From positions 62,001-126,000 of the forward strand of contig NZ_SMGD01000001.1 of NCBI RefSeq assembly GCF_004339545.1: 64,000 nucleotides of DNA, in the 5' to 3' direction. Positions 8,275-58,218 of the stretch are shown here, in pieces (the stretch's first letter is position 1; each line of letters begins with the position of its first letter). The translations under genes and the position numbers were made by a program. This stretch comes from Celerinatantimonas diazotrophica. GTDB taxonomy: Bacteria; Pseudomonadota; Gammaproteobacteria; Enterobacterales; Celerinatantimonadaceae. The notes below the pieces were generated by a model that saw only the letters and a program-made list of their open reading frames with translations, did not search any database and was not told where the DNA came from.

Positions 8275-8435
8275 ATCACAATGCATCTGAATATCAATTG
8301 GCTTCAACCAGTAAATGATTTATTGGTCCCCGGAGCACAACAACTCAATAAAAAGCGCATGCTCCTCTAATCACATTGTATGGGATTTACCTATTCAAAC
8401 TCAAAGCTAAGTTGCATTTATTTAATATAATTATA

Positions 8436-8846: not shown

Positions 8847-8856
8847 TGTTAATCTC

Positions 8857-9264
8857 CTAATGGACCAGCGATGCGGTTAACATACCAAAGGCAACAAATA
8901 CACATGTGGCAACAATTGAACGAGGTGATAAACGAGCTACGCCGCAGACCCCATGACCACTGGTACAACCATTCCCTAAACGCGTTCCAATCCCCACCAA
9001 AAAACCGCCAATCACGGCAACCCATGGATTGATCTGATGAAAATCCGGCAAATAAAACCCCAGAGGTTTAATGAACCAAGGGGCCATAATTAATCCAGCG
9101 ATAAACGCACATTGCCACAGTGGAATCTTTGGCGAACGAACTAATAAAGCCGAGGTGATCCCGCTAATTCCGGCAATTTTCCCATTAAAAAACATTAAGA
9201 TAAAGGCAGCAGCACCAATCAGTGCTCCCCCTATCAAAGCCAATATCCAGCTCTGTTCCATCAT
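8857..9264 (-). CDS. YeeE/YedE half-size membrane protein (sulfur transport family)
   Basis: 135 residues, about four membrane helices, with the hallmark GNGCTSGHGVCGVARLSPRS carrying two cysteines. It is the N-terminal-half equivalent of a full-length YeeE. Its start overlaps the end of the upstream reductase gene by 4 bp, indicating a coupled operon: reductase/rhodanese, then YeeE-1, then YeeE-2. The gene set implies uptake or shuttling of sulfane sulfur that the rhodanese domain then handles. Confidence 0.87.
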   Translation of the reverse strand: MMEQSWILALIGGALIGAAAFILMFFNGKIAGISGITSALLVRSPKIPLWQCAFIAGLIMAPWFIKPLGFYLPDFHQINPWVAVIGGFLVGIGTRLGNGCTSGHGVCGVARLSPRSIVATCVFVAFGMLTASLVH

Positions 9265-29024: not shown

Positions 29025-30935
29025 TTATGAATCTGCCAAAATACCAGGGTATTCAACTGACAACGAATCATCAATTTCATACATTTTTATTTTTCGCCAT
29101 AGTGTTGTTTGGCTAATCCCAAGAATATATGCTGATTTTTTCTTATCACCAGCCGTTTTATTTAAAACATCGGCTATCAATCGGCTTTCTGTACGTTTAA
29201 TTAAATGGGTTTGATCTAACAAACAGGCCGACTCTTTAAGCTCACAGACTTCTGGAATATCCTCCAGAATATGCATTTGTAACAATTCACTCAGAGTGAC
29301 TTCATGGCTATCTGCTAATACAATTAATCGATTTACGAATGCTTGAAGTTGACGTACATTTCCAGGCCAAGAATAACGACGTAGGTAATTTTCTACTTCT
29401 GGAGCCAACTCGAGCTGGCACTGGTTATGTTGTAAGATCTTGCCAATGATAGGTATGATATCTTCCGGTCGTTCATTTAAAGGGGGGATATGTAATTCAA
29501 GAATATTAATTCGATAATAAAGATCTTCTCTAAACTTACCCTTTTCGACTAATTCTGAAAGTTTTTTGTTACTTGCAGTGATCAATCGAAAATCAGTATT
29601 AATCAGAGTACGGCCACCAATCCGAACGAAGGCTTTTTCCTGTAGCACTCGCAATAGCTTAACCTGCACTGAAAGTGGTGCTTCACTAATTTCATCAATA
29701 AAAATTGTCCCATGATTCGCTAATTCAAAAACGCCCGCTTTCCCACCTTTTTGGGCGCCAGTAAAGCTACCTTCGGCGTAACCAAAGAGCTCACTTTCCA
29801 ATAAACTTTCTGGAAGTGCAGCGCAGTTTACCGCAATAAAAACGCCTCGATGACGCGCACTCGCATTATGGATCCCTTGCGCAAAGAGTTCCTTTCCGGT
29901 CCCTGTCTTTCCATAAAGATTGACTGGAAAATCATATTGGGCAAACTTTTTCGCTCGTTCAAGCGATGCGGTTATTGCAGGTGAATGGCCAATAATATCG
30001 TCAAAAGTATATTTTGCCGTAAGAGCCATCCCCATGGCTGGTTTGTTATTGTTTTGTTGGTTATTACGGCTTAATTTTCCTGAAACGACAATAAAATAGT
30101 TGTTATGTCTTTTAATGTTACGTAGATCGATCAACAATTCTCGGTCTTTAATCGAAATCGGTAATTTAAAGACGTCTTTTTCCCCAATAATATAATCAAA
30201 TAATGATTTAAAGTTGGTATCCTGAAAGATATTATCTCCCACGACACAACTAAATAACTTTTCCCCAAGCGTATTAATTCTAGTGATATTACCATAGCTA
30301 CTAATACACATAACACCTTCTGAAACACAGTTAAGCGCTCCTGTCGTTTCAATTAACTTAGCGTTTTTTTGCTTCATGCATTTGAGGATATGCTTCGCTT
30401 CATTAATAGCATTCTCGATGGACAGATTGTCGGCGTCCCCCATAATGACATCAAGCCCATATTTATGTGCCATATGAGCAACTGCTAACCCGCCGATAAC
30501 GACTTTATAGCCTTGCTCCGCTAGCTCAGAGATAATGTTTTCGACATCATAATGCGTGTAAACACGACAAATTTTGAACTGTTCATGAGTTTTCTGCTGA
30601 TATTTTTGGAGCACCCGGCAATATTGAGGAAAACCAATTGCGACAATATTTTCACCATATTTTTTAGCTTCCTTAATACTCTGAGCGATACCATAGTGAT
30701 CATGTAGGATTTCGATCACCGGAATATTGAGGTGACTGCGTAACAACGCAGCGGTTCCCCCTCGGCTGATAATCACCTGAGTCCCCAGATTGATTAGCTC
30801 TTGTGCCTTCTTTAACACATCAAAGTGCTGTAGTTCATACACTGGAATGCTCTGATTTGTTTCAGAAAGAATGGTGTGAATACGCTGAGTTATGGTATGC
30901 GAGACAGAAAATATAACAATCTCATGTGAGAGCAT
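29025..30935 (-). CDS. PrpR-type sigma-54-dependent activator
   Basis: 636 residues: an N-terminal PrpR-like sensor domain (about 1-185; VIISRGGTAALLRSHLNIPV, YKVVIGG), a short PAS-like segment (about 200-285), an AAA+ domain (about 310-545) with Walker A GKTGTGKELF, Walker B GTIFIDEI and the sigma-54 contact loop GSFTGA (Ser replaces the first Ala of GAFTGA), and a C-terminal Fis helix-turn-helix (SAYILGISQTTLWRKI). Such proteins sense a metabolite and open sigma-54 promoters. It sits beside a catabolic operon whose promoter has -24/-12 elements, its likely target. Confidence 0.9.
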   Translation of the reverse strand: MLSHEIVIFSVSHTITQRIHTILSETNQSIPVYELQHFDVLKKAQELINLGTQVIISRGGTAALLRSHLNIPVIEILHDHYGIAQSIKEAKKYGENIVAIGFPQYCRVLQKYQQKTHEQFKICRVYTHYDVENIISELAEQGYKVVIGGLAVAHMAHKYGLDVIMGDADNLSIENAINEAKHILKCMKQKNAKLIETTGALNCVSEGVMCISSYGNITRINTLGEKLFSCVVGDNIFQDTNFKSLFDYIIGEKDVFKLPISIKDRELLIDLRNIKRHNNYFIVVSGKLSRNNQQNNNKPAMGMALTAKYTFDDIIGHSPAITASLERAKKFAQYDFPVNLYGKTGTGKELFAQGIHNASARHRGVFIAVNCAALPESLLESELFGYAEGSFTGAQKGGKAGVFELANHGTIFIDEISEAPLSVQVKLLRVLQEKAFVRIGGRTLINTDFRLITASNKKLSELVEKGKFREDLYYRINILELHIPPLNERPEDIIPIIGKILQHNQCQLELAPEVENYLRRYSWPGNVRQLQAFVNRLIVLADSHEVTLSELLQMHILEDIPEVCELKESACLLDQTHLIKRTESRLIADVLNKTAGDKKKSAYILGISQTTLWRKIKMYEIDDSLSVEYPGILADS

Positions 30936-31026: not shown

Positions 31027-31058
31027 CGCCATAATACTCTCAATCAAGTATTATGGCG
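31027..31058 (-). terminator. Hairpin after the catabolic operon
   Basis: CGCCATAATACT (31027-31038) and AGTATTATGGCG (31047-31058) form a perfect 12-bp stem with an 8-base loop, directly downstream of the last operon gene. The U-tract is poor, so it may be a transcript-stabilising stem. Confidence 0.6.
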
Positions 31059-31066
31059 ATCATAGG

Positions 31067-32230
31067 CTATAAAGACGGACGTCGATAAACAATCTGTCCA
31101 TCAAGAATGGTTGCACAATTTTCGATGATTTGATTAGCTTTTAGATAATTCCCCTGGCTGTCATCAAATGTGAATGGCTGATCGACCAATTTAACAATCG
31201 CTATATCGGCAAAAGCCCCTGGTTTTAGAGTTCCGATTTGGCCATCCATCTTCATCAGTCGAGCTGGTGTTTCAGTGACAGCTTTGATGATGTCGAAAAT
31301 CGGCATTCCCATATTCAGGTACTTCGACATAACCATCAATAAACTATAAACTTGGGTCGTCCTGAGGCTATTTTTCAGCGTCATATCCGTACTAATAACA
31401 TCCGGATAAAAACCTTGTTCCATGGCCGTCTGAGCGACTTTAAAATGGAAATGAGCTACGCCGTTGGAACAATCAAAAATCACGCCTCGTTGCTGAGCCT
31501 TAACGAGCTCAGGATAAACGTTCCCCTGCTCATCGAGAATGGTATTCCCTTTCCCCTGATAGCAATGCGCAAAAATATCACTTTCCCGAAAATGTTCAAT
31601 CAGTTGTGGAGCTGGCAAATGCGAATCGGTCACATGAACACAGAAATTTGTATTCAGTTGCTGAGCCATATCCACCATCGTCATGAATGGATCCTGCTTG
31701 AACGGATGATCATGAAACAACTCCTCACTATAGCGAAGTTTAAGTCCAAGGATCTGATCAGGGTTTTCTGCCAATAACTGAGCAATTTTGGCCTGATTGT
31801 AATGCGCCGGATCGATATTCTCGAGATATCCTGTGGGCCCTCCAAGGGTCGACAAACCGACACTCACCACATTCAGATAGCTCTTAATACGCACTCTTGA
31901 AGGTTCAACCACACTGCTTTTGAACAGGTTAAAGGTAGTACAACCGCTACTTCCAGCATCAACGACACTTGTCACACCATTTGGCAAGCAGATGATATTC
32001 GGGTCAACGGCGATCGCAAGGCCACCATGGAACACATGAGTGTGAAAATCGATCAATCCGGGTAAAACCCATGCACCTTCAGCATCAATCGTGGTATCGG
32101 ATTCATAATTTTCAATACCACTTAGGTCAACGATCTTATTACCATTTACTCCAATATCTTGACGAATGTATTGGCGTTGCTGAAGATCCAGTATTGTTCC
32201 ATTTTTAATTAACAAATCCAGTTTCATCAT
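31067..32230 (-). CDS. COG3964-type amidohydrolase/deacetylase
   Basis: 387 residues of the amidohydrolase superfamily: metal His-x-His in LIDFHTHVFHGG, a conserved GVTSVVDAGSSGC, Lys in LGLKLRYSEE as bridging-residue candidate, His in CVHVTDS and FAHCYQGKG, and the catalytic Asp in VISTDMT. It resembles the COG3964 group (Atu3266/EF0837 relatives), some members of which deacetylate alpha-acyloxy carboxylates. Last gene of the operon. I infer that it removes an acyl group to release a 2-hydroxy acid. The natural substrate is unknown. Confidence 0.82.
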   Translation of the reverse strand: MMKLDLLIKNGTILDLQQRQYIRQDIGVNGNKIVDLSGIENYESDTTIDAEGAWVLPGLIDFHTHVFHGGLAIAVDPNIICLPNGVTSVVDAGSSGCTTFNLFKSSVVEPSRVRIKSYLNVVSVGLSTLGGPTGYLENIDPAHYNQAKIAQLLAENPDQILGLKLRYSEELFHDHPFKQDPFMTMVDMAQQLNTNFCVHVTDSHLPAPQLIEHFRESDIFAHCYQGKGNTILDEQGNVYPELVKAQQRGVIFDCSNGVAHFHFKVAQTAMEQGFYPDVISTDMTLKNSLRTTQVYSLLMVMSKYLNMGMPIFDIIKAVTETPARLMKMDGQIGTLKPGAFADIAIVKLVDQPFTFDDSQGNYLKANQIIENCATILDGQIVYRRPSL

Positions 32231-32236
32231 AGCCCC

Positions 32237-33670
32237 CTAGAGTCCAAGAAAATGCCAATATGGCAATCCAATGAAGAGGTACACAAGGAAGTTAATTAAA
32301 ACCATCACGGTACCGATTCCCCAGAATTTTTTCTGTGGCACATAGCCACTTGAGAAGGTAATAACGCCAGCCCCATTTCCGTAATGAGTTAACAGCGCTC
32401 CATAAGCTGCCGAAAATGCTAATGATAAAGCAATTAACATCGGATCAGCACTGGTCGTCATCCCCAAGGTGAACAGAACAGGGAAGAACGAAACCACAAA
32501 AGCACTACTTGAGACAAACAAGTAACGCGCCGCGAGGCTAAAGAGTACCAATACGGCAATAGCAACATACGAATTAAGATGGGATAGATCGACGTAGTTT
32601 TTGATGACATCGACTAAGTAGAGATAAAAACCACCATGAGCCAAAGCAACCGCAATGCCGTAGAAAGCACCGTACCAAACAAACGTCTGCCAAGCACCTT
32701 TCTCATTCACCACATCTTGCCAACTCAGCACTTTAAACAACAACAAGCTAGAGAGAAAAACCAACCCAACCGAAATATATTTAATTCCAGTTAACGAACC
32801 AGTCATCCATCCAAGCACCCCAAGTACAAAGAAGATGATCAACAGTTTTTCTTCACGTTTCACAGGACCTAATTCACGTAGACCTTTCTCAGCCACTTCT
32901 CGAACGTTATCGATCACCTTGAGTTCAGGTGGATAAAGTTTATAAATAAGCAGCGGAGCAACTAACAAAATGAGTCCAGCTGGAACGATGGCCGCTTTAA
33001 ACCAAACCATCCATTCCAAATTGATGTTGAGGATCTTGTTGGCCAGTGAAACGGTAATTGAGTTCGTTGCCATCCCAGTCATAAACAGAGCCGATGTTCC
33101 CATTGATACCACGTACATCAGCATGGTCAAATAAGCCCCAAGCTTCCGGCTCCCCTGAGTTGGCGTAGAGTTTAGCGCCTCAGCAATGTTACGGAAAATA
33201 GGATAAGTGATGCCACCGGAACGTGACATATTAGAGCCGGTAGCCGGTGCTAATATCAGATCGGTAAACATCATCAGGTAGCCTAATGTAAGGGTATTTT
33301 TGCCATATCGTCTGAGCAACAGATAGGCAATCCGCTTACCTAGTCCAGTAATCACAAAAGCCTTACAAATAATAAAGGCACTGATAATAAACCAGACTAA
33401 TGGCCCCCCAAATCCGGCAAATAAAACTTTCGGCGAAATAAATAACGATGCAAATCCCAAAATGATAAGCATAATGACAGCATCAGTATAAGGCCGTAAA
33501 ACCAAGCCACATAGCATTGCTAAATATATGCCCACAATTGCCCAAGTTTGTGCAGTTAAGGCGGCTGGATGAGGTGTAAACCAAAATATTATAGGAAACA
33601 GTATAATTGGTACGAGTTTTAATAATTTCATATCTTTCACCTTGATAATTAAATGCCTCTTCCGAGGCAA
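32237..33670 (-). CDS. DASS-family sodium/dicarboxylate symporter
   Basis: 477 residues, about 11-13 membrane helices, with DASS/SLC13 features: LILAPATGSNMSRSGG and FMTGMATNSITVSLANKIL, corresponding to the two substrate/sodium hairpin motifs. The family imports di- and tricarboxylates or sulfate with sodium, or exchanges them. Its place between the aldolase-like and amidohydrolase genes suggests it imports the pathway substrate, probably an anionic hydroxy acid or its acyl ester. Separated by 6 bp from the downstream gene. Confidence 0.88.
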   Translation of the reverse strand: MPRKRHLIIKVKDMKLLKLVPIILFPIIFWFTPHPAALTAQTWAIVGIYLAMLCGLVLRPYTDAVIMLIILGFASLFISPKVLFAGFGGPLVWFIISAFIICKAFVITGLGKRIAYLLLRRYGKNTLTLGYLMMFTDLILAPATGSNMSRSGGITYPIFRNIAEALNSTPTQGSRKLGAYLTMLMYVVSMGTSALFMTGMATNSITVSLANKILNINLEWMVWFKAAIVPAGLILLVAPLLIYKLYPPELKVIDNVREVAEKGLRELGPVKREEKLLIIFFVLGVLGWMTGSLTGIKYISVGLVFLSSLLLFKVLSWQDVVNEKGAWQTFVWYGAFYGIAVALAHGGFYLYLVDVIKNYVDLSHLNSYVAIAVLVLFSLAARYLFVSSSAFVVSFFPVLFTLGMTTSADPMLIALSLAFSAAYGALLTHYGNGAGVITFSSGYVPQKKFWGIGTVMVLINFLVYLFIGLPYWHFLGL

Positions 33671-33685
33671 ATAATTAATTGCGCA

Positions 33686-34384
33686 TTAGTTATAGGTCCC
33701 GTCGATAATCTCTACCCCAGTTTCATTTATAATTCGTTTCACCCAGTCTTTATTTGCTTTACCCGCTTTGGCTGCTTCAACTTTTCCCGAATCATATTTA
33801 GAATATTCTTTAACTTGATCTAATAAATTAGATGCTTCCATCAATGGAATAACTACAATCCCATCGGTATCTGCCACAATTAAATCACCAGGACAAATAG
33901 CAATACCACTAATTGCAATAGGCGTATTTACTTCACCAGGGCCTTGCTTAAAGGGACCAGCAGGATTAGCACCAGCCGCAAATAACGGTAGTTCCATTTT
34001 TGATATTGCATCTAAATCTCGGATAGGACCATCTAAAATAATACCGCCAATATGCTTATCGTAATGCGCATAGGTTGCCATAATCTCGCCCATCAAAGCA
34101 CGGGAGCGATCACCCTCATTAGAAACGATAATAATGTCATTTTCGTTGGCCATTTCTAAAGCGGCATGCAGCATTAAGTTATCACCCGCACGAACTTTAA
34201 CTGTTACAGCAAAACCTACTGTCACCGGTTTTTTGGGTGAAGAAATTAATTTAATATCATTGCCAATCACCGAAATACGATTCATTTTATCGGCAATATT
34301 AGCCACCGGTAGTTGTTCATATTCTTCAATTAAATTAGTGTTTAATTGCGGACGTTTAGTGAAAATTCGGTTACCGATACTCAT
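33686..34384 (-). CDS. RraA-like/HMG aldolase-family lyase
   Basis: 232 residues with the RraA fold: LPVANIADKMNR, GFAVTVKVRAGDNLMLHAA, the active-site GGIILDGPIRDLDAI with conserved Arg-Asp, and DLIVADTDGIVVIP. Members include 4-hydroxy-4-methyl-2-oxoglutarate/CHA aldolases and oxaloacetate decarboxylases needing Mg(II). In this operon it probably cleaves or decarboxylates the 2-oxo acid made by the neighbouring dehydrogenase. True RraA (RNase E inhibitor) is shorter and not in such an operon. Start overlaps the upstream stop by one base. Confidence 0.85.
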   Translation of the reverse strand: MSIGNRIFTKRPQLNTNLIEEYEQLPVANIADKMNRISVIGNDIKLISSPKKPVTVGFAVTVKVRAGDNLMLHAALEMANENDIIIVSNEGDRSRALMGEIMATYAHYDKHIGGIILDGPIRDLDAISKMELPLFAAGANPAGPFKQGPGEVNTPIAISGIAICPGDLIVADTDGIVVIPLMEASNLLDQVKEYSKYDSGKVEAAKAGKANKDWVKRIINETGVEIIDGTYN

Positions 34385-35352
34385 TATTTATTCCCTCCTT
34401 CAAACCCTGGAACTGGCCAACGGGGCTCTTTTCCAGATAGCACTTCGTCGATACCTATTGCAGAATGTAGCGATGCACGATCAGTTGCTTCTCTTGTCGC
34501 TGCACCAATGTGCGGACCAATAACAAGATTATTTAAGCTAAATAACGGATCAGTTTTCTCGAAAGGTTCATGTTTTATAGTATCAACAGCGGCACCAGCA
34601 ATCAGGTGATCATTCAAAGCGTTAAATAGATCTGCTTCATTCACTACTTTACCGCGAGCAGTATTGATGAAATAGGCAGTTTCTTTCATTAAATTAAATT
34701 GTTTGTGACCAACAAAATCAAATGTTTCTTCGGTAGCTGGACAATGCAGAGAAACAATATCACTTTCTTTAAAGATGCGATCAAAGTCATCGGTTAATTC
34801 AACACCCTCTGGAATTTGCTCTTTGGTTTTATATGGATCATAACCGATGACTTTCATATTAAATCCATACATCGCTTTTTTAGCAACTCGAGAACCAATG
34901 TTTCCGACACCAATCAATCCTAATGTTTTGCCATCGAGTTCAACTTTAGGTGTTTTTAATTTCGCAAAATAAAAATCATCCAGCATTTTTTCCTGAACAA
35001 GTTTAAAATTACGAGAACAATGCAACATATAAAATATAGCTAATTCAGCAACTGACATGCTATTAGCTACGGGGCAATTTAACACCATCACTCCATGTCG
35101 TTTTGCTGATTCCAAATCAACGGTATCGTAACCGGCTCCATGGCGAGCAACGACTTTTAATTTTTTGGCAGCGTCAAATACTCGGTCAGTCATTTTGGAA
35201 AGACGAACAATAATTCCATCACAATCGGGAATATCACGAATAATATCTTCTTCTTCCATTCCTGAGCCATCAATTAATTCATATCCCCGACTTTCTAGAT
35301 ATTCACGACCTTCTGCCATAATCTCTTGCGGTAATAAAACCTTGAAACTCAT
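34384..35352 (-). CDS. D-isomer-specific 2-hydroxyacid dehydrogenase
   Basis: 322 residues: substrate-binding lobe, then the NAD fold with GLIGVGNIGSRVAKKA and the catalytic set Arg (about 233, NTARGKVVNEADL), Glu (KHEPFEKTDP) and His (IGPHIGAATREATDRAS). Matches the SerA/2-hydroxyacid dehydrogenase family, which oxidises a 2-hydroxy acid or reduces the 2-oxo acid with NAD(P). First gene of the operon, 22 bp after the predicted transcription start, with AGGAG at the ribosome site. The substrate is not deducible. Confidence 0.88.
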   Translation of the reverse strand: MSFKVLLPQEIMAEGREYLESRGYELIDGSGMEEEDIIRDIPDCDGIIVRLSKMTDRVFDAAKKLKVVARHGAGYDTVDLESAKRHGVMVLNCPVANSMSVAELAIFYMLHCSRNFKLVQEKMLDDFYFAKLKTPKVELDGKTLGLIGVGNIGSRVAKKAMYGFNMKVIGYDPYKTKEQIPEGVELTDDFDRIFKESDIVSLHCPATEETFDFVGHKQFNLMKETAYFINTARGKVVNEADLFNALNDHLIAGAAVDTIKHEPFEKTDPLFSLNNLVIGPHIGAATREATDRASLHSAIGIDEVLSGKEPRWPVPGFEGGNK

Positions 35353-35384
35353 AATTATTCTCCTATTAAAGTTGGTTATATAGG

Positions 35385-35400
35385 AGCGAGAAACGTACCA
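35385..35400 (-). promoter_or_regulatory. Sigma-54 (-24/-12) promoter of the catabolic operon
   Basis: Minus strand TGGTACGTTTCTCGCT: GG at -24 and GC at -12 separated by exactly 10 bases, 14 of the 16 bases fitting TGGCACG-N4-TTGC(A/T). It lies about 33 bp before the start codon of the dehydrogenase gene, and a sigma-54 activator is encoded at the other end of the cluster. Confidence 0.8.
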
Positions 35401-35533
35401 ATGTCATAAAAAGAATAATAAAAAAAGTTGTATCTATATGTTTTTTAAAGGTTTTATATTTATTTGTTATGTTTTAAAATTATTTTTGTCATTGAAGGCA
35501 ATCACATATTTTTAATATGGCAATTCTCAAGGT

Positions 35534-35567
35534 ATTTCATTTTGAAATCGATATTTCATTTTGAACT
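35534..35567. promoter_or_regulatory. Paired palindromes, likely activator-binding sites
   Basis: ATTTCA-TTT-TGAAAT (35534-35548, perfect) and ATTTCA-TTT-TGAACT (35553-35567) have centres 19 bp apart, so they lie on about the same helix face. They lie about 150 bp upstream of the -24/-12 promoter, the usual place for an enhancer bound by a PrpR-type activator. Confidence 0.7.
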
Positions 35568-36041: not shown

Positions 36042-36512
36042 TTAAGCAGCAGAAACAATAAACTTATGGGTGTCTGATTGTGATAATCGATACTCACCCA
36101 ATGTCCCATTTTTCGCATTTTCATCGGCAGTCATCTTGTCAGATGCTAAATGCCAGTTATTGTTTGAATCATGATGGCCCTGGCCCAGGCAAATATTAAA
36201 CGAAGTCCCATTAATGACTAATACGCCTTTGATAGCGAAGTTCAACTCTTTAGGTTTATTGTCACCGCCAAGCGTATGGATCATGCGCGAATACACACCA
36301 TCCACAGAACTATTAAACCAATCAGCACAACGAGAGGTTCCATGACGCCCCGCTTTGACAGTAATAGTTAATTCATTGTTTGCCGACTTTGTTGTCACAC
36401 CATCAAAAGGTTGTCCATCAGAGACAATGTAATCATTCCCGTAGGTAAAAGAAATTTCTATATCAGATGTTTGAGCTTCAAACAGAAACTCATTGTCATG
36501 TACTGTAGTCAT
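36042..36512 (-). CDS. Hypothetical beta-rich soluble protein
   Basis: 156 residues with no signal peptide or membrane helix. Alternating polar/hydrophobic strands (DIEISFTYGNDYIV, NNELTITVKAGRHGT, KELNFAIKGVLVI) suggest a beta-sandwich, perhaps lectin-like or a small effector. A good AAGGAAA ribosome site and a clean terminator show an intact single-gene unit. It lies at the edge of the prophage-derived region. I do not recognise the family. Confidence 0.65.
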   Translation of the reverse strand: MTTVHDNEFLFEAQTSDIEISFTYGNDYIVSDGQPFDGVTTKSANNELTITVKAGRHGTSRCADWFNSSVDGVYSRMIHTLGGDNKPKELNFAIKGVLVINGTSFNICLGQGHHDSNNNWHLASDKMTADENAKNGTLGEYRLSQSDTHKFIVSAA

Positions 36513-40396: not shown

Positions 40397-40702
40397 CTAA
40401 CGACGTTTTTTCATGTAGACAGTGATGGGCCCCTGAAAAAACAGAACGAATGTAAAAATAAACGCAATAAGCATACAAACACCGTCAGCTTGAGACCTTC
40501 CTGTTATCACATCATATGGAAAGATGTAGCCTTGATGCTGCCAAATGATCAAGTTAAAAAACAACCAATAAATCCAGTTAAACCAGCTCAATGATTTCAA
40601 CAGAAAATTCAAATTCAGGAAGCGTCGTTTGATGAAACGGCACCAAAAGAACAGTACGATGTTCAGAACGAGTAAACCAAAAGCTACAAAAATATCACCC
40701 AT
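40397..40702 (-). CDS. Putative immunity protein paired with the intact toxin
   Basis: 101 residues, four hydrophobic helices: MGDIFVAFGLLVLNIVLFFW, CRFIKRRFLNLN, WFNWIYWLFFNLIIW, FPYDVITGRSQADGVC and FQGPITVYMKKRR. Its ATG overlaps the toxin stop by 8 bp (ATGGGTGA, 40695-40702), so it is translated by coupling with the toxin, a common toxin-immunity arrangement. The membrane location fits protection against a pore-former acting at the inner membrane. Function is inferred from context only. Confidence 0.78.
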   Translation of the reverse strand: MGDIFVAFGLLVLNIVLFFWCRFIKRRFLNLNFLLKSLSWFNWIYWLFFNLIIWQHQGYIFPYDVITGRSQADGVCMLIAFIFTFVLFFQGPITVYMKKRR

Positions 40703-41570
40703 GCTTCTTATCTTCTTTTTGATTCGATGAAAACTGCTCTTTTACCCAATCATATGCATCCTCAACGTGTCCGGAAACCGTATTTACATCGGCGGCGATC
40801 TCCGAAACGAAGGCAGTGCGGCTTAGATCATGCCATGCTCGGTGAGTCTTATCGAGTAATCTCTGAATTGTTAATCCAAACGATTGAACCAACTCATCCG
40901 GAGCTAAGTATTTTATTTCAAATAACCCACGCGCAGAAATCGCAATATCGCTGACATCGTAAATATCATCCCCTAAAACTTTGCCAAATATTTTCTCATG
41001 CCATTGACGAAAGTAACCAGAATGCGACTTGAAACCATCCTTGAAATATAAATAAGCTTCTTCAAAGTTATTGGTGACGTGCCCAATAATGACGATTACA
41101 GCAAGCACCGCGATCGCCACAAATATCGCGACAAGAACACCTTCAAGCGATGCCGCTGCACCAATTCCTAGCCCGACACCATCAACAAATAAGTCTGCGG
41201 CGCCCAAAAAACTTAACAAGGTTCTTGGATTCGTTATCCAACCAATAATCTCTCGCCCCATATATAAGGAAGAGATAGCAGTTCCCCCGTTCGTCACGCA
41301 ATCCAAGATGAGTCTTAATTTTTGAGGATTTAATACATTTGAGATCTGCTGATAAAGTTCAATCGCTTTTGCTTTCGTCAAACGGCCATAAGCTACGAAC
41401 TCAGACATGATCTTATGCACCATCGTTTCAACATAACTGATGAAACTTTGTTGCAGTGTACCGGCGGGGATTTCTTGGCGAATCGTAGTATGAGCTTGCA
41501 TAATGGCTGCATTTGCATGCGCTTGTACTTCTGCGACATCTTCTGGCGCGACTTCTGCCACAACACACAT
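40695..41570 (-). CDS. Candidate membrane-active (pore-forming) toxin
   Basis: 291 residues. An amphipathic helical N-terminal part (about 1-90) is followed by a long glycine/alanine-rich hydrophobic stretch (about 110-160: FLGAADLFVDGVGLGIGAAA, then VLVAIFVAIAVLAVIVIIGH) that could form a membrane-inserting hairpin like those of colicin-type toxins, then a soluble C-terminal part (KYLAPDELVQSFGLTIQRLL). No signal peptide. It overlaps a small membrane protein gene, and two C-terminal remnants of sister copies lie nearby. AAGG is too close to ATG 41570, so the true start may be GTG 41561. I know no exact family; toxin is an inference. Confidence 0.65.
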   Translation of the reverse strand: MCVVAEVAPEDVAEVQAHANAAIMQAHTTIRQEIPAGTLQQSFISYVETMVHKIMSEFVAYGRLTKAKAIELYQQISNVLNPQKLRLILDCVTNGGTAISSLYMGREIIGWITNPRTLLSFLGAADLFVDGVGLGIGAAASLEGVLVAIFVAIAVLAVIVIIGHVTNNFEEAYLYFKDGFKSHSGYFRQWHEKIFGKVLGDDIYDVSDIAISARGLFEIKYLAPDELVQSFGLTIQRLLDKTHRAWHDLSRTAFVSEIAADVNTVSGHVEDAYDWVKEQFSSNQKEDKKHG

Positions 41571-42624: not shown

Positions 42625-44058
42625 TTAATTAGCATCACCAGATATTTGTTTTGCAATATAAGTAGCATAGTTATCAGTCATTCCAGAAATATAATCCATT
42701 GCACGCATAAAACTTTTATAATATATTTCATCCATATCATCTATTTCTTTATCTTCTATTTGTTGAAGAACATTTGACTTATCAAAATCATCTTCCATTA
42801 GATCTAGTATACGTTTATTTTTAAATGAAATTTTTCCTTTATTTTTTATGTAATCCTCAACCGCAGGTATAAATGCATCCAATAATATTTCCATCGTACT
42901 ATAGCTTCCGACTTCAATTTCAATTTTCCTAGGGATTTTAAACACTTTTTCATTAGTTAATATTTTTAATTTTTCTAGGAGATTAGCTATTCCTTCATTA
43001 GTTTTTTCAGCCAAATCTAATAATGGGATATCACATTCACCACCCATTATTAAATCATAATTATTTATAAATTCTCGCTTGACAGCTTCAATCAAATAAC
43101 CAATAGCTTTTGATCTTATTCTAGACATTTTTGTTTTGTTTGATAATTTATCATAGTCACTAATTTCATTAAATAAAACCCTGTCTAAATTAGATTCTTT
43201 TAATATATATTCAAGATTGTTATATGTTATAGCACCAAGTTCAATTGCATCTTCAATATCAATAATTTTATAGCAAATATCATCAGCAGCCTCAACTATA
43301 AATGCTATGGGATGTCTCGCATATTCAATTTCATCAACACTTTTTTTTATCAACCCTAATTCATCTACTAGTTTATAAAATATTTCTTCTTCATCCTTAT
43401 ATATATTAAATTTCTCTTTAATTCCTGCTTTAGATATGTTGGATACCCAAGGATATTTTATCATCGCACCTAAAGTTGCATACGTTAACTGCAAACCATG
43501 TTCTTTATGAGAAATATCATAGTGGGAACAAATTCTGAAACCTTGGGCATTTCCTTCGAAAATTTTAAAATCATTCTTTTTATCTTCTTCAATATGCTTA
43601 TTTAAAAAATGATTTTGATCAGAGAACTTTGTCGAAAACCATTCTCTGATCGCATGTTCCCCAGCATGTCCGAATGGACTATTTCCAATATCATGGGCTA
43701 CACACGCGGCTTGAGCTATAGATGTCAATTTTAAAATAAACTCATCATCTTTATTCCCATCACTTGTTAAGGGAATATCTTTAGGATTATTCGTCTCGAT
43801 ATCTTTACCTACAAGGTATGCGATACTTCGACCAACCGTACTCACTTCTATTGAATGCGTTAGACGGTTATGTACATGGTCATTTTCCGCTAATGGATGC
43901 ACCTGTGTTTTTCGACCAAGCCTATGAAATGCATTGGAAAAAACTATACGGTCATAATCTCTAACATGTTCACTTCTCAAATCTGTGTCTGTACCTTTTT
44001 CAACTCCAACTCTGGTTTCTGTTAGTAACTTTGACCAGTCCATTCGATTACTACTCAT
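42625..44058 (-). CDS. dGTPase-family dNTP triphosphohydrolase (prophage cargo)
   Basis: About 477 residues of the HD superfamily dGTPase type: SEHVRDYDRIVFSNAFHRLG, KTQVHPLAENDHVHNRLTHS with the first His, and AHDIGNSPFGHAGE with the His-Asp pair. It should hydrolyse dGTP or other dNTPs to nucleoside and triphosphate. Phage-borne or island dGTPases can block infection by dNTP depletion. Its base composition (very AT-rich) differs sharply from the phage genes on either side, marking it as an insert between tail genes. ATG 44058 has GGAG six bases upstream; ATG 44070 overlaps that site. Confidence 0.88.
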   Translation of the reverse strand: MSSNRMDWSKLLTETRVGVEKGTDTDLRSEHVRDYDRIVFSNAFHRLGRKTQVHPLAENDHVHNRLTHSIEVSTVGRSIAYLVGKDIETNNPKDIPLTSDGNKDDEFILKLTSIAQAACVAHDIGNSPFGHAGEHAIREWFSTKFSDQNHFLNKHIEEDKKNDFKIFEGNAQGFRICSHYDISHKEHGLQLTYATLGAMIKYPWVSNISKAGIKEKFNIYKDEEEIFYKLVDELGLIKKSVDEIEYARHPIAFIVEAADDICYKIIDIEDAIELGAITYNNLEYILKESNLDRVLFNEISDYDKLSNKTKMSRIRSKAIGYLIEAVKREFINNYDLIMGGECDIPLLDLAEKTNEGIANLLEKLKILTNEKVFKIPRKIEIEVGSYSTMEILLDAFIPAVEDYIKNKGKISFKNKRILDLMEDDFDKSNVLQQIEDKEIDDMDEIYYKSFMRAMDYISGMTDNYATYIAKQISGDAN

Positions 44059-44235
44059 ATTTTTCTCCATTGAAATAAATTAATATTTAATCCATGAGGC
44101 GTGACAACCTCTTCTAAGCGGTTTCCCCGCACCCGATAGCACTGCGTTTTTTTGTGTCCAAAATTTGTGGGACCGAACGATTTTATGGTCGGGAGTTCTG
44201 CCGAATACAACATTTTCGGGGAATAGGCAGAGCGG

Positions 44236-45678: not shown

Positions 45679-46599
45679 TTAAGAACGCCCCAACTGTTTA
45701 GTAACAACAGAGACGACTTTGGCAGAGGTATAACGGCCATGGAGCTGTTTCACCAACATCGATAGCTCGATAGGATGCCGTTCCCAGCTGTGGTTTTTAA
45801 TGGCTTCTTCCTGGTCGTAACCTAAAACGCCAAGAGGAACATCTGCATGGAATTGGTAACCATTGGCAATATCTTCCACATCTAATCGCACACTTCCATC
45901 TTTGGAAAAATCAGCTGCTCTTAAGAAATATTCCCCTTTAACCATCTGTTCAACTGCTTTTTCACGCGGCTTACTCACAATTTTGTTGGCCTGAACACCT
46001 GAAATCACAAAGTTGGGTTGCGGATCGTCGTTTGCAGAAGCTGCAACTTCAAGCTTATCTTCTGGGCGTAGTTTGGTGAGGATGTCAGCGCGTAACTCAC
46101 CGAGTCCTTGCATAATTTGGCTGCAGGCAATGCTGTTCTGAGCTGCTTTTTGGACTATTTCCATTTTATCTTTTTCAAGTTGCGACAACTCAATGGTTTG
46201 ATCCAGCTCTTTTTCTTTCCCTTTATGCGCGAGCCATGACCGCCAAAAAAAGGCGCTCGTTGCGCATAAGCCAAAAAATATCAGTACTAATGTAATTTCT
46301 GATGGTGTCATTTTACTTACAGCGTCCTGAAGTGTTTTGACAAGAGAGTCTTGTAGCAAGGTCTCAAAAATTGAAGAGCCATCACCGACCTTAACAACTA
46401 ACTCTAACTTTTCACGCTCTTCTTTCGTGAGATGGTGAAGATTCTCATCACCATAATTACTAATACAGTATACCTTATGAACTTCTTTCTGCAGATTCAA
46501 TAAAGCAGGCATGATCCGTGTCGGTATTGTCCCTTTAAAATCGGCACCTTGAATATGAATCACAAATTTTGGCCATGATTCTAAGCGAATAGATTCCAC
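45679..46599 (-). CDS. Membrane-anchored coiled-coil protein, possibly 5'-truncated
   Basis: At least 306 residues: a soluble N-terminal part, one membrane helix at about 100-120 (EITLVLIFFGLCATSAFFW), a basic/acidic coiled-coil region (KGKEKELDQTIELSQLEKDK) and a C-terminal soluble domain ending SVVTKQLGRS. The annotated start is GTG. The same frame continues upstream as ELALKLLAQLIDGYEIENVE with good protein character but no start before a stop near 46690, where phage sequence begins, so the true 5' end may have been lost. Family unknown. Confidence 0.6.
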   Translation of the reverse strand: MESIRLESWPKFVIHIQGADFKGTIPTRIMPALLNLQKEVHKVYCISNYGDENLHHLTKEEREKLELVVKVGDGSSIFETLLQDSLVKTLQDAVSKMTPSEITLVLIFFGLCATSAFFWRSWLAHKGKEKELDQTIELSQLEKDKMEIVQKAAQNSIACSQIMQGLGELRADILTKLRPEDKLEVAASANDDPQPNFVISGVQANKIVSKPREKAVEQMVKGEYFLRAADFSKDGSVRLDVEDIANGYQFHADVPLGVLGYDQEEAIKNHSWERHPIELSMLVKQLHGRYTSAKVVSVVTKQLGRS

Positions 46600-48751: not shown

Positions 48752-51169
48752 TTAAACAGCTAACCATTGGCCATTTTGATAGCGACTTACCTGCTGGTCA
48801 GCATCTATGTGATAAAGGAATAACCAGCCATTATTCACCAGTGATGCAACATCGTCATGGCGCGCCATAATATCTTCAATGGCAGGTTTAGGCGCTTGAA
48901 TATAGGTGCTCAGACGAAGGGGTTGATGACGGTATTTCCGACCATCGTGCACCGATTGTTGGGATAGCCCAATGCGCAGGTCTCCGCCATTTCCTTCAAA
49001 TACTCCAATATGACCGCCGACAACATTATGTAGCAGTTTATTACCACTCCCATATTTATTGGGGAGTGCAACGGAAGCGTAATATTGCAGGTTAATCCAG
49101 TTCATCACCAACAACGGAGCGGTCATGATTTTTTCCAGCTGGGTAAACTGTGGATCCTGACTCACATGGTATTCATGTAGGAAGGCTCGCCCACCAAAAT
49201 CAAGACTACGTGTGAGTGCTCGAGGCGCGATAAACACCGCGGCGTTATTACACAATCCCCATTCCGGACGCATCTGAGCCCAGTTCGTTGCGCGTTGTTT
49301 GAAGAAACGCTTGATCTCAGATTCCGAAGGCGCTTTGGGAGCATCAAATTGCTGGGATCGGGTAAGCTGAGCCTGACGGCAACCGCGCTCGATTTTTTCT
49401 CGCCATGATGCTTTTGGAGCATCAAAGATCAAAATTTCGTCGATGGTTGTGTTGTGCATTGCAGCATAAAATTGGGTGTCATTGGGTACTGTTACGTCAA
49501 ACTGCGGCATCTGTTTGCGGACGGCTGGATCGTTGAGCAGTGATGCTAATACTTTGACATTCACTTCACCGGTTTGGCCACCACAAGCACCGCAGTCAAG
49601 GCTGGATGCAGTATGGTTGTTACAGGTTTGACTTCCATGGCCGGTCAGTAGCACGACGTTAGCTAACCTAGCTTTGATCCCCATTGCTTTGATAATCCCA
49701 GCCGCGAGTTCTGCCTTCTCAGTGACACTTAGCGGCTGCTCATCCCGTTTTAGTTCCCATTTTTCATTAGGGCGGGCATCTTTATTGACCGGGTTCTTGC
49801 TCCCTTGCTGAAGGACGGCTCGTTTAAATAGACTTACCAATTTTAGCAAGCCACTGGCTTCAATCATCCCTAGGTTTGAGTATGGTTTTTCCAAGCTGCT
49901 CTGCCAACCTAACTGCGTAAGTCGGACCCAACGGTCAGGTTGCAGACGTGTCTGCTTGGCCACCAAAGAGGGGGCCATTAAACCCGGGAGTTGCGGCCGA
50001 GTGATACTGCCATCGTGGGTTTGATAAGCAATAGGAATACCGAAGAATCCAGCAAATCCCAAGGTTTCAATCTCGCTGCCTTGCGCTTCAAGGGCTCGGC
50101 GCATGGGTTCGGAACGAACATCAATACAGAAAACGGCCTGAACTTCCGGACGTGATTGCTCGGGGGCAGGAGTCGCCTGTTTGATTTGGTTTATCCAAGG
50201 CATCTGTACGCTCAGTTCCAGCGCTCTTTGCCATACCCAGAGCGGTTGCAGCTGCTGTTCCGCTTGCTCGTAGAGGCTATTAATTCGGGTGGCCTGATGG
50301 TGCAGCATTTGGCTTAATTGAGAAGCAATTTGCGGATGGTTTTGCTGTAACCAACGCATCAGTACGCGATCCCACGCCAGTAAGATTGCGAGTAGACCAA
50401 GCGTATGAGGAATGCGTAATTGTTGCTGCTTGAGCCCTGCTTGCCAATCGAGCCAAGATTGCCAACCAGCCCAACCTGAAAGTTGATGCAAACAGCCCCG
50501 CATATAGGCTTCAGCGCCGTCGTGATCATTCCAAATCGGCTGCCAGAACTGTTCCAGTTCACTGAATAACTGCATCATTGTTGTAGGCATAGCACGAAAA
50601 TCGTTAAGCAGATCAACGCCCAGCAGTGTCTTAATGCCTTTATCGCGAGTAACAACCTCTAACCAGCTTTGGTAGAGGTGCTCACCATTTTGGCCTTCGG
50701 CTTCAAATCGTTCCGGATATTTGTGGTAGAGCGCGATAAACTGGCTGACTTGCGCAATGATCTCCTGCTCCCAGCTATGGCCTTGAGGGGATGGAATCGT
50801 CTCATCCATCAGCATCGCGAGTGTTTTCCAACGCATGTTTAGTGGGTTTTCTCGCAGTAGATATTCTTCCAGTCGGTTCTCACTAAACGGTAATTGCAGC
50901 TGTTTCAATGCTTGCTTGAGATGCTCAGATTTTATTTGCTGTTGCCACAGGCTGCGATAGTAGCTGCGATCCATCAGCCCTGTTTCACCCGTTAGTACCG
51001 CTTGTTCGGCAAAAGTACGTTCGATCGACGCGTGTCGCTGAGGCCACCATGGGTTGACTGCAACTGATTGATCCAGAGGCCACGCCGGTGCGATTGAAGC
51101 CGCTGCCAATTTAGCGATAGGCCAGGCAACAATACGATTTTTGGTTTCGACAGTGTTTGCTTCCGTCAT
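48752..51169 (-). CDS. dabA: DabA, inorganic carbon uptake subunit (DUF2309)
   Basis: 805 residues of the DabA family. The zinc-site pattern resembling beta-carbonic anhydrase is present: Cys and Asp in VFCIDVRSEP (about residue 345) and His and Cys in LTGHGSQTCNNH and LDCGACGG (about 510-530). With the membrane partner DabB it forms the DAB complex, which traps CO2 as bicarbonate using the membrane ion gradient. It overlaps dabB by 4 bp, the usual two-gene operon. Length is in the family range. Confidence 0.93.
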   Translation of the reverse strand: MTEANTVETKNRIVAWPIAKLAAASIAPAWPLDQSVAVNPWWPQRHASIERTFAEQAVLTGETGLMDRSYYRSLWQQQIKSEHLKQALKQLQLPFSENRLEEYLLRENPLNMRWKTLAMLMDETIPSPQGHSWEQEIIAQVSQFIALYHKYPERFEAEGQNGEHLYQSWLEVVTRDKGIKTLLGVDLLNDFRAMPTTMMQLFSELEQFWQPIWNDHDGAEAYMRGCLHQLSGWAGWQSWLDWQAGLKQQQLRIPHTLGLLAILLAWDRVLMRWLQQNHPQIASQLSQMLHHQATRINSLYEQAEQQLQPLWVWQRALELSVQMPWINQIKQATPAPEQSRPEVQAVFCIDVRSEPMRRALEAQGSEIETLGFAGFFGIPIAYQTHDGSITRPQLPGLMAPSLVAKQTRLQPDRWVRLTQLGWQSSLEKPYSNLGMIEASGLLKLVSLFKRAVLQQGSKNPVNKDARPNEKWELKRDEQPLSVTEKAELAAGIIKAMGIKARLANVVLLTGHGSQTCNNHTASSLDCGACGGQTGEVNVKVLASLLNDPAVRKQMPQFDVTVPNDTQFYAAMHNTTIDEILIFDAPKASWREKIERGCRQAQLTRSQQFDAPKAPSESEIKRFFKQRATNWAQMRPEWGLCNNAAVFIAPRALTRSLDFGGRAFLHEYHVSQDPQFTQLEKIMTAPLLVMNWINLQYYASVALPNKYGSGNKLLHNVVGGHIGVFEGNGGDLRIGLSQQSVHDGRKYRHQPLRLSTYIQAPKPAIEDIMARHDDVASLVNNGWLFLYHIDADQQVSRYQNGQWLAV

Positions 51170-52548
51170 TGTTTAGCCTCCGTTTTCAAAGAAAGATGCG
51201 CGTGTTGGAGTTCCAGCAGTGATTGGCTTGGCCACAATTTTAAGGTCAGCCTTGTGGCCCATTCATCCAGATAAGCACCTGCATTGAGCCAGATGAACAG
51301 CCGTTTGACCCAGCGCACGTGCGGCCAATATTGCAGAGCCATAGAGAAGACAAACAAAGCCACAAAAAACATGGCAACCAGATTATCGGCGCTATGGTTG
51401 AGTGGTGCATCAAGCCCCATCAGGACAACTAAGTGATGTTTTGCGGTGGTGTAAAAGGCCAGTAGTGCACAGGCAACCACCAAAGTGATTAGCAGCCGAA
51501 CGGCTGTTGCGCTATCTAAGCGAGTCACGCTGGGCAAAATCAGTGCGGCTAAGGCAAACAGAACCAGCATCGCCGCAGCCATACTGTTAGTGACGGTAAA
51601 CTGCCACTGAGCTAGCGCGAGGATGGCAATAGCTAACACTAGGGCAAGCGTCCAATGGCGTACTTTAGGTTTAAATTCGCCGCTGAGCTGAGTGGCTAAG
51701 TAGTTGTTTACCGCACTGCCGCTGTTGAGGAACGAATAGGCTTTATAGAATGAGTGGGCAAATAGATGGAGCAATGCCATCTCATAAAGACCCAAGGCAA
51801 TTTCAACTAGCATAAGCCCCATTTGCGAGCTGGTGGACCAGGCTAATTTTACTTTAATGCTAATTCGGGTCGTAGAAACCAAGCCTGCAATGACAGTGCT
51901 GAGCCCTGCCCACACAATGAGTAGCCAACAGGCACTCGAACTTGCAGCAAGAACCGGAGCAAAAAACAGCAGTAAGATCCCACCCAAGTTGACGATCCCT
52001 GCGTGTAGTAGTGCCGAAACCGGCGTTGGTGCTTCAACAACTTGAATCAGCCATCCATGAATGGGCAGCTGTGCGCATTTGATAAGGGCGACGACCGCGA
52101 GCAGTACTGCGGCAATTTTAAGGTCTAGATGGGACCCCGCGAAAGGCATTTGAGCGATGACTTCACTGATGTAAGACGTTTGAAAATGGTAGTGAAGCAG
52201 TAACAGAGCCACACCAAGTAGCAGTTCGCTAAGACGTGCGAGCAGAAATTTTTTATGAGCGGCTAGCTGTGCTCGTGGACGCTCGGGATAAAACAGTATG
52301 AGCCGATGCAGCGAAAGGCTGACGCTAGTCCAGGCTGCCCAGAATAACAGCATGTGATTACTGATAATCACTAAAACCACGGCGGAAATCGTCAGGGCTA
52401 ATGCCCGTAAAAAGCGCCCACGGTCAGATTGACCACTAAATGCAACCCAACTATAACGAAAAATGGTAAATCCCAGAATGGCGACTAAGCCGAGTAACAT
52501 CAGCTTTAGAGGAGTGATTAAAAACAGGGAAAACATGACCAACCTCAC
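51166..52548 (-). CDS. dabB: DabB, proton-channel-like subunit (NuoL/Mrp family)
   Basis: 460 residues, about 12 membrane helices, in the proton-conducting antiporter-like superfamily of complex I NuoL: LIKCAQLPIHGWLIQVVEAP, TPVSALLHAGIVNLGGILLL and KLAWSTSSQMGLM, carrying the key Lys and His residues. Standalone copies next to DUF2309 genes are DabB, which energises DabA. Divergent from a LysR gene across 87 bp. Confidence 0.92.
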   Translation of the reverse strand: MRLVMFSLFLITPLKLMLLGLVAILGFTIFRYSWVAFSGQSDRGRFLRALALTISAVVLVIISNHMLLFWAAWTSVSLSLHRLILFYPERPRAQLAAHKKFLLARLSELLLGVALLLLHYHFQTSYISEVIAQMPFAGSHLDLKIAAVLLAVVALIKCAQLPIHGWLIQVVEAPTPVSALLHAGIVNLGGILLLFFAPVLAASSSACWLLIVWAGLSTVIAGLVSTTRISIKVKLAWSTSSQMGLMLVEIALGLYEMALLHLFAHSFYKAYSFLNSGSAVNNYLATQLSGEFKPKVRHWTLALVLAIAILALAQWQFTVTNSMAAAMLVLFALAALILPSVTRLDSATAVRLLITLVVACALLAFYTTAKHHLVVLMGLDAPLNHSADNLVAMFFVALFVFSMALQYWPHVRWVKRLFIWLNAGAYLDEWATRLTLKLWPSQSLLELQHAHLSLKTEAKQ

Positions 52549-52635: not shown

Positions 52636-53523
52636 ATGAGCCGACTCAATTATCATCATCTGTACTATTTTTGGCAGGTTGCGAAGCTGGGAAACCTGAC
52701 GCAGACTGCTCAGACGCTTCATATTTCACAATCCGCATTGTCTTCGCAGATTAAACAGCTTGAGCAATCATTGGATGTTCAGTTGTTTATTCGCAAAGGG
52801 CGAACGCTATCGCTTACGGAAAGTGGCTATCATGCGCTGAACTATGCGGAGGAGATTTTCAAAAATGGTGAGGAGCTGGAAAAACTGCTGACCAGTGGCG
52901 AGACTTTACCGGGAGCCACGATTCGCATCGGAATGCTGTCAACAATTTCGCGAAACTTCATCGAGCAATTCATTCAGCCCTTAATTAAGCAAAATGATTG
53001 TCGCTACACTTTACAGTCGATGAGTCAGGCGGGGTTATTAAATGCGCTCTCAGAGCTGCAGATCGATATTGCGTTAACAAATATTCCAGTTCGCGGCTCC
53101 AATAAACAGAGTTGGCAGAGCCGGCTTTTGGCTCGCCAAGCGGTGGCGATTATTGGTCAGTCAGGCTTAGATTTATCTGGCGAACTAGATGATAGTTATC
53201 GCGGTCAGCGTTGGGTTCTGCCTTATGGCGAAAACCCGCTGCGGGCAGCATTTGACGCTTTTGCGGCGCAATATGAATTGCAACCGGAGGTTGTGGCGGA
53301 ATCGGACGATATGGCGATGCTTCGACTATTGACTCGTGATACCGGAGCGCTTGCTGTGATGCCGAACGTCGTTGTAAAAGATGAATTGGATCAGGGAACT
53401 TTGAAACATTATCTTTTGCTGCCAAACGTGTATGAGAACTTTTATTCGGTGACCGTTAAACGGCGTGTGGTTCATCCGAAACTCGATATGTTGATCCAAC
53501 CTTTTTTAGATCTAAGCGATTAA
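52636..53523 (+). CDS. LysR-family regulator (NhaR-like), divergent from dabBA
   Basis: 295 residues: N-terminal winged helix (LNYHHLYYFWQVAKLGNLTQ, LHISQSALSSQIKQLEQSLD) and a C-terminal co-inducer domain (about 95-290). The HLYYFW motif is typical of NhaR-type LysR proteins. Its position immediately divergent from dabB strongly suggests it controls dabBA from the 87-bp shared region, probably in response to CO2/bicarbonate or ion stress. The effector is unknown. Confidence 0.88.
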   Translation: MSRLNYHHLYYFWQVAKLGNLTQTAQTLHISQSALSSQIKQLEQSLDVQLFIRKGRTLSLTESGYHALNYAEEIFKNGEELEKLLTSGETLPGATIRIGMLSTISRNFIEQFIQPLIKQNDCRYTLQSMSQAGLLNALSELQIDIALTNIPVRGSNKQSWQSRLLARQAVAIIGQSGLDLSGELDDSYRGQRWVLPYGENPLRAAFDAFAAQYELQPEVVAESDDMAMLRLLTRDTGALAVMPNVVVKDELDQGTLKHYLLLPNVYENFYSVTVKRRVVHPKLDMLIQPFLDLSD

Positions 53524-57927: not shown

Positions 57928-57950
57928 TATTAGGAAAAATATTAGGAAAA
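57927..57950. repeat. 12-bp tandem repeat after the integrase
   Basis: ATATTAGGAAAA occurs twice without a gap (57927-57938 and 57939-57950), beginning at the last base of the integrase stop codon and about 80 bp from the tRNA 3' end. Likely integrase arm-type or excisionase binding sites of the att region. Confidence 0.55.
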
Positions 57951-58029
57951 CGAGGATTTTGATAGAAATTTAACGGACGTTAATCTTTAGGATTTTTTAA
58001 AAAGTCTTTATAAATCAGTAAGAGGAAGG

Positions 58030-58116: not shown

Positions 58117-58130
58117 GATACCAAATTTTA

Positions 58131-58204: not shown

Positions 58205-58218
58205 TACATTCGTTATCT

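Follow-up and report, generated by a model that had tools for sequence, protein, structure and literature searches.

Analysis of a 64,000-nucleotide stretch of the Celerinatantimonas diazotrophica genome (contig NZ_SMGD01000001.1, positions 62,001 to 126,000 of the forward strand; the whole stretch is hereafter called the window) led to a putative catabolic operon of four genes with an activator gene behind it (Table 1). All five genes lie on the minus strand, in the order D-2-hydroxyacid dehydrogenase (DH), RraA-like enzyme, DASS carrier, amidohydrolase (AH) and transcriptional activator. DH and RraA overlap by one base, and the carrier gene follows after 54 nt, counted from the ATG at 33631, which is likely its true start rather than the TTG at 33670 with which the open reading frame (ORF) opens as listed. 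The carrier and AH genes are separated by 6 nt, while the 131 nt between the AH and activator genes hold a 12-bp perfect inverted repeat. Judged from the sequence, the four genes most likely form one transcript and the activator gene would be transcribed separately. An earlier note on this DNA had described a tightly packed four-gene block followed by a PrpR-type activator and had placed it under sigma-54 control; its coordinates and strand were borne out, its gene families agree with the Pfam and NCBIfam profile matches, and the conserved -24/-12 promoter-like site before DH supports the control that it proposed. The end point given there (35400) also covers the sigma-54-like site at 35385-35400.

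Enzymes, carrier and activator

The DH contains the 2-Hacid_dh and 2-Hacid_dh_C domains and retains Arg233, Glu262 and His281, which we take to be the usual catalytic triad of D-2-hydroxyacid dehydrogenases; both domains and the triad place it in that family. It is 79-81% identical to copies on three Pantoea plasmids and one E. coli plasmid. Its best solved relatives are PGDH-type enzymes, and a role in serine synthesis as SerA was discarded on the TIGR01327 score (271.3 against a cut-off of 454). The RraA-like protein matches PF03737 at 146 bits. Its best solved relative is the HMG/CHA aldolase 3NOJ (LigK/GalC type), a member of the same family, with whose Arg-123/Asp-124 pair its own Arg122-Asp123 align; domain and catalytic pair assign it to the RraA-like class II pyruvate aldolase/decarboxylase superfamily. 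In HMG/CHA aldolase this residue pair stabilises the pyruvate enolate and binds the metal, and the enzyme performs both its aldolase and its oxaloacetate decarboxylase activities through a single pyruvate enolate (PMC5065237). The window protein reaches 231 bits with the PRK06201 subfamily model NF004850, which is borderline given a cut-off printed as 231, and the model names no function. Regulation of RNase E was rejected as its role (TIGR02998, 47.7 against 241.25).

The carrier carries the Na_sulph_symp domain and scores well above the cut-off of TIGR00785 (354 against 198.6 bits). It is 42% identical to E. coli YbhI, 34% to CitT and 33% to TtdT, and YbhI, the nearest of these three, is annotated as a putative tricarboxylate transporter. 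The activator shares with PrpR the architecture of a PrpR_N and a sigma-54 domain, and is 49-52% identical to the activator of four plasmid cassettes. Unlike PrpR, it stays below the equivalog cut-off of the propionate regulator model TIGR02329 (374.9 against 499.2) and its operon harbors no prp-type enzymes; a PrpR/propionate operon was rejected on both grounds.

Concerning the AH, the best NCBIfam model is NF009060 (PRK12394, 'metallo-dependent hydrolase'), with 505.2 bits against a cut-off of 442. The metal ligands of the binuclear type are all present (H63, H65, K164, H199, H222 and D282, that is HxH-K-H-H-D), and together with the amidohydrolase fold they are those of COG3964 enzymes of the Atu3266 type. 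All 29 aligned rows share the HxH, the second H and the D, and 26 of them have the K. At the position of H199 the first 18 rows have His, but the 11 most distant ones (ten Bacteroidota-type records and one from Eubacteriales) have Glu or Asp, which may point to a separate subgroup or to misalignment of that stretch. The structure model built from the 29 sequences (pLDDT 93.0, pTM 0.93) superimposes on PDB entry 8je0 with a Z of 60.5 and a root mean square deviation of 1.2 over 375 residues (63% identity), followed by 8wzy (Z 49.3), 2ics (48.3) and 2ogj (45.8). Beyond these four, it matches a broad amidohydrolase group at Z 28.3 and below, with many cyclic amidases, dihydroorotase, allantoinase and hydantoinases among them. 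8JE0 belongs, like the window AH, to the PRK12394 family; its title, 'A novel amidohydrolase', names no function. With 86.5-87% identity, the AH copies of three Klebsiella loci (L047, L048, L057) come nearest to 8JE0 among the loci compared, and for this reason the AH of a Klebsiella-type cassette has probably been solved already. No publication on 8JE0 (by entry code and by topic) or on 8WZY was found in the open-access full-text literature. We take 2OGJ and 2ICS to be the COG3964 enzymes Atu3266 and EF0837, the former presumably a deacylase of acetyl-(R)-mandelate. Both have the same fold as the window AH, but identity to it is only 28-29%, and the EF_0837 model TIGR03583 gives 217.9 against a cut-off of 432.15.

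Promoter and regulatory sites

Upstream regions of 17 related loci and the window were compared, with shuffled sequences as control for the sigma-54 site and the inverted repeat. All 18 contain, 48-61 nt before DH, a 16-base site that agrees with the sigma-54 consensus at 10 or more of 12 positions, as expected of a sigma-54 operon with a promoter before its first gene that is conserved in relatives. The strict form, TGGCA-N7-TGC, is present in 17 of the 18 against 0.12 expected from shuffles, the window sequence TGGTACGTTTCTCGCT being the sole miss. Further upstream, the window has one perfect inverted repeat, TTTCAAAATGAAAT, and one copy with a single mismatch, 19 nt apart. The 18 regions together contain 13 perfect TTTCANNNTGAAA repeats (0.095 expected from shuffles), and the sole perfect TTTCANNNTGAAAT of the 64-kb window is the one upstream of DH. 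Additionally, a candidate CRP-like site, with two mismatches allowed, occurs at -143 to -163 in every upstream region; it is weak in the window (TGTGATTGCCTTCAAT) and suggests carbon-source control.

Within the transcribed region, a hairpin in the RraA-DASS gap was found at the same place in 17/17 loci folded, some of them with near-identical sequences. Its sequence varies between the conserved flanks ATAA and AGGT, and in an alignment of 14 sequences four of the eight pairs show at least one pair-keeping change on both sides, with a covariation term of 0.05. The covariation is slight and therefore not strong evidence; the hairpin perhaps serves segmental mRNA stability. The inverted repeat between the AH and activator genes is absent from the list of predicted terminators. 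A hairpin 3' of the AH gene was found in all nine loci folded, window included, and the repeat is likely the end of the four-gene transcript. In the scan of the window, sigma-70 sites (19, against 22.0 in shuffles) and terminators (8, against 5.3 with a standard deviation of 2.2) were close to the shuffled counts, and neither list was therefore taken as evidence alone.

Table 1. Coordinates of the operon genes and regulatory features within the window.
Feature	Position	Strand	Basis or remark
D-2-hydroxyacid dehydrogenase (DH), first operon gene	34384..35352	-	Pfam PF02826/PF00389
RraA-like class II pyruvate aldolase / 2-oxo acid beta-decarboxylase (activity inferred)	33686..34384	-	PF03737
DASS family sodium-coupled anion carrier	32237..33631	-	PF00939, TIGR00785
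Amidohydrolase (AH), PRK12394 family	31067..32230	-	NF009060, Amidohydro_1/3
PrpR_N + sigma-54 AAA+ + Fis-type helix-turn-helix transcriptional activator	29025..30935	-	PF06506, PF00158, PF02954
Sigma-54 -24/-12 promoter-like site TGGTACGTTTCTCGCT	35385..35400	-	48 nt before DH start, GG-N10-GC kept
Inverted repeat TTTCAAAATGAAAT, proposed activator binding site	35534..35547	.	Upstream-region comparison
Second inverted-repeat copy, one mismatch	35553..35566	.	Upstream-region comparison
Weak candidate CRP-like site TGTGATTGCCTTCAAT	35491..35506	-	Nearer consensus in most orthologous loci
Hairpin in RraA-DASS gap	33654..33669	-	RNA folding of orthologous gaps
12-bp perfect inverted repeat between AH and activator gene	31027..31058	.	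No strong T-run

Conservation of the cassette and of the DH-RraA pair

An alignment of the window AH with those of three Pantoea plasmids and one E. coli plasmid was scanned against one genome per GTDB species, and each of the 67 loci returned was searched, translated, with the five window proteins. An earlier scan of genome contigs with peptide patterns from the window AH alone had returned no relative. All five genes, in identical order and strand, were found in every one of the 14 loci whose AH identity is at least 57% (L043-L054, L057 and L059), which belong to Phytobacter, Citrobacter sedlakii, Pantoea, Mixta, Klebsiella, Kosakonia, Intestinirhabdus, Pectobacterium fontis, Leminorella and Candidatus Symbiopectobacterium. 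Conserved co-occurrence of the four families was the check that the earlier note had set for its proposal, and it held. A chance gene cluster is ruled out by this synteny, and a five-gene set kept intact across genera has likely been selected for one task. Identities to the window over the intact and plasmid copies are 79-83% for DH, 63-70% for RraA, 75-80% for DASS, 57-64% for AH and 48-53% for the activator.

Among plasmids, the four loci fetched with an AH of at least 60% identity (three from Pantoea, one from E. coli) are all intact. A search of 72,556 plasmid records gave four with such an AH, all from Pantoea, and the records with the closest RraA and DH are those four as well; three were fetched and proved intact, and NZ_OY970451 was left out. 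One of 5,426 E. coli genomes matched the DH-RraA DNA, namely on plasmid pEc-JB2-4, where the whole cassette adjoins an IS110 transposase gene. In the sample of the order, AH was detected at an E-value of 1e-50 in 4 of 394 genomes, own genome included; the identity reaches at least 60% in the own genome and in one other (G582), which has the full cassette. In the sample of the class, 2 of 369 genomes, own included, had AH at 1e-40 or better. The other genome of the window's genus yielded no AH at 1e-50 and no close RraA (best 29%). In the genome and plasmid samples examined, the cassette is rare, intact where present, and carried on chromosomes as well as plasmids. The Pantoea anthophila plasmid (L110) also bears, 5.4 kb from its main cassette, a paralogous RraA-DASS-DH set (4086-9164) that lacks AH and includes an HD-domain and a LysR gene.

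More distant relatives keep the association in altered form. Two Enterococcus loci (L055, L062; AH 50%) have the cassette reordered as AH-DASS-DH-RraA with a second RraA and an opposed activator gene. A metagenome-assembled genome (MAG) of Clostridia (L060) bears a CitMHS-type carrier, AH, RraA and DH in a row on one strand, and a 4 kb contig of an Acidaminococcus MAG (L061) bears RraA, AH and a CitMHS-type carrier. The gene association thus persists in these last two sets though the carrier family changes.

The DH-RraA pair is also found with other partners in proteobacteria. Plasmids of Paracoccus, A. fabrum, Martelella and Ponticoccus carry it in a single run with TctCBA carriers; accompanying it in A. 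vitis and one Rhizobium are Tct genes and an alpha-hydroxy acid oxidase on the opposite strand. Terrarubrum has a DH relative without RraA; in Rhizobium Pop5 and Methylobacterium nodulans the RraA relative adjoins a DUF1932 protein instead. The alphaproteobacterial DH-RraA-TctCBA loci, such as that on A. fabrum pAt, resemble the window operon in their adjacent DH and RraA with a carboxylate carrier, but differ from it by a LysR-type gene and another carrier family, with no AH or sigma-54 activator in the stretches shown. Behind DH-RraA-TctCBA, A. fabrum pAt (L039, 10784-13032) has genes for a second D-2-hydroxyacid dehydrogenase and for glycerate kinase, a gene set hinting at a tartrate-like acid there. 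Of 398 genomes searched from the phylum, 71 contained a match to the A. fabrum DH, in many cases a long SerA-type frame, and 17 stretches of 15 kb were taken around the best-scoring matches with a frame below about 385 codons (five lower-scoring short frames were left out). In 14 of the 17, RraA and DH are adjacent and share a strand; RraA lies 210 bases off on the opposite strand in L159 and 5.6 kb away in L154, and none was seen in L156. No AH match was obtained in any of these stretches. An SMP-30/gluconolactonase-type gene is present in seven (L151, L152, L154, L157, L158, L159 and L165), directly behind RraA-DH in L157. Carriers are mostly TctCBA or TRAP, and MFS genes adjoin in L157, L159 and L162. 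In L156 and L164 an L-type (Ldh_2) dehydrogenase stands beside DH, with PdxA or HpcH/HpaI adjacent; a sulfolactate-type module, presumably a TTT carrier with two stereospecific dehydrogenases, was rejected, as the window operon gives no sulfonate sign. Taken together, these neighborhoods point to a DH-RraA core that would be combined with varying carriers and varying hydrolases.

Proposed route and competing readings

Gene families, operon structure, synteny, intact catalytic residues and the conserved promoter can be read from the DNA itself, and on balance they make it probable that the four genes constitute a sigma-54-dependent catabolic operon with its own activator, serving the breakdown of a masked hydroxy acid. 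With a small carboxylate probably bound to its PrpR_N domain, the activator would attach to the pair of inverted repeats that lies about 150 bp upstream of the -24/-12 promoter, and so turn on DH-RraA-DASS-AH. The carrier would import a di- or tricarboxylate-like anion, in which the AH would hydrolyse an ester, amide or lactone bond and release a free 2-hydroxy acid. DH with NAD would oxidise this to the 2-oxo acid, and the RraA-like protein, as a metal-dependent pyruvate-enolate enzyme, would cleave or beta-decarboxylate the latter, yielding pyruvate or a similar central metabolite together with CO2 or a second acid. We infer the order of the steps, the chemistry of each, the substrate and the binding of the activator. 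The substrate is likely a charged multi-carboxylate acid, because the carrier of the cassette is a DASS protein, or DASS or CitMHS in the Firmicutes sets; the argument fails for some loci with the wider module, since MFS genes adjoin there (L157, L159 and L162). An O-acylated (R)-2-hydroxy dicarboxylate, tartrate- or malate-like, is our leading but weak guess. The scheme of the earlier note (import, hydrolysis, oxidation, then cleavage or decarboxylation) is supported in outline, but the deacylation on which it settled has become less certain, as a lactone could be opened instead.

Several observations weigh against this reading of the operon. The AH gene lacks an RraA or DH match beside it in 49 of the 67 loci (L056, L058, L063-L109), where its identity is mostly 30-35% and some hits are short fragments. 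L058 and L063-L109 have AH copies only, except for four fragments with nothing above 60 bits, and in L078, L079 and L089 an RraA or DH match lies 7-8 kb from AH. On a Salmonella plasmid, an AH of 38% identity adjoins an MFS gene only, without the cassette. In L056 (AH 43%), DASS-AH is accompanied by a CoA transferase, an HMGL-like lyase and an iron alcohol dehydrogenase, and AH products may therefore feed other routes. Regarding the promoter region, the repeat, once a mismatch is allowed, is not enriched in the 64-kb window (6 against a shuffle mean of 4.26), and the excess of both the sigma-54 site and the repeat is inflated by shared descent, since shuffles ignore relatedness. Finally, because DH-RraA pairs occur without AH, and in seven of the 17 stretches with a lactonase-type gene, lactone opening is a live alternative to deacylation.

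In that alternative the AH would act as a lactonase or an opener of cyclic amides, the import being the lactone of a hydroxy di- or tricarboxylic or sugar-type acid, with no deacylation taking place. The SMP-30-type genes in seven of the 17 stretches, directly behind RraA-DH in L157, speak for it, as do the dihydroorotase, allantoinase and hydantoinases among the fold neighbors of the AH after the top four. In L151, L152 and L154, however, the SMP-30 gene sits with a TRAP transporter unit that also occurs in Martelella, and possibly belongs to a separate operon, while the COG3964 structures 2ICS and 2OGJ outrank all the cyclic amidases; we consider lactone opening possible but on the unlikely side. 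A doubtful alternative is that the RraA-like protein is an aldolase of the HMG/CHA type, acting on a branched 4-hydroxy-2-oxo acid that a lactone or conjugate would set free, and yielding pyruvate plus pyruvate or oxaloacetate. It draws on 3NOJ as the best solved relative and on the retained Arg-Asp pair, but the protein scores 110.9 bits against the cut-off of 304.5 of the HMG/CHA aldolase equivalog TIGR02798, and the operon has no aromatic-pathway gene. Least probable is a tartrate core, in which the AH would first strip an acyl group (as from plant hydroxycinnamoyl tartrates), DH would form oxaloglycolate and RraA would decarboxylate it to a hydroxypyruvate-type product: the A. fabrum gene set, the tartrate dehydrogenase gene near DH-RraA on the other strand in Ponticoccus and the suitability of (2R,3R) tartrate for D-2-hydroxyacid enzymes speak for it, but the carrier is nearer to YbhI than to the tartrate antiporter TtdT, and a general glycerate-kinase/tartrate link was rejected, as among the annotated stretches it appears in A. 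fabrum and neither the kinase nor the second dehydrogenase of A. fabrum is the best match of any frame in the 17 others.

Returning to the breakdown of a masked hydroxy acid, a bolder version, unlikely to hold in full, would see in the cassette an undescribed, horizontally spread and complete route of plant- and gut-associated bacteria. An acyl-masked hydroxy di- or tricarboxylate, which may be a tartrate- or malate-type acid esterified with a hydroxycinnamoyl or acetyl group, would be imported whole, unmasked inside and burned via DH and the RraA-type enzyme, the same DH-RraA core being reused for related acids with other carriers and unmasking hydrolases. The earlier note knew of no pathway described for this exact gene set, and in the open-access full-text literature we likewise found no paper on the combination; the families are known, and their combination is undescribed there. 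Solving a cassette that is intact in so many genera, Pantoea, Klebsiella, Citrobacter, Kosakonia, Phytobacter and Pectobacterium among them, would assign functions to the PRK12394 amidohydrolase with its solved close relative, to a DASS clade and to the DH-RraA pair. With the promoter, the regulator and its likely sites mapped in this detail, the inducer could be screened for directly.

Elsewhere in the window, a DabA gene (PF10070) and its Proton_antipo_M partner form an inorganic-carbon uptake pair at 48752-52548, with a LysR-type gene divergent from it at 52636-53523. Between the operon and the DabA genes lie four ORFs without a Pfam match at an E-value of 0.001 (36042-36512, 40695-41570, 42625-44070 and 45679-46599). 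A phage-type integrase gene adjoins a tRNA-Leu/Cys/Gly cluster at 56911-58294, likely an island edge, and two tRNA-Ser (tga) genes stand about 600 bases apart at 61920-62683.

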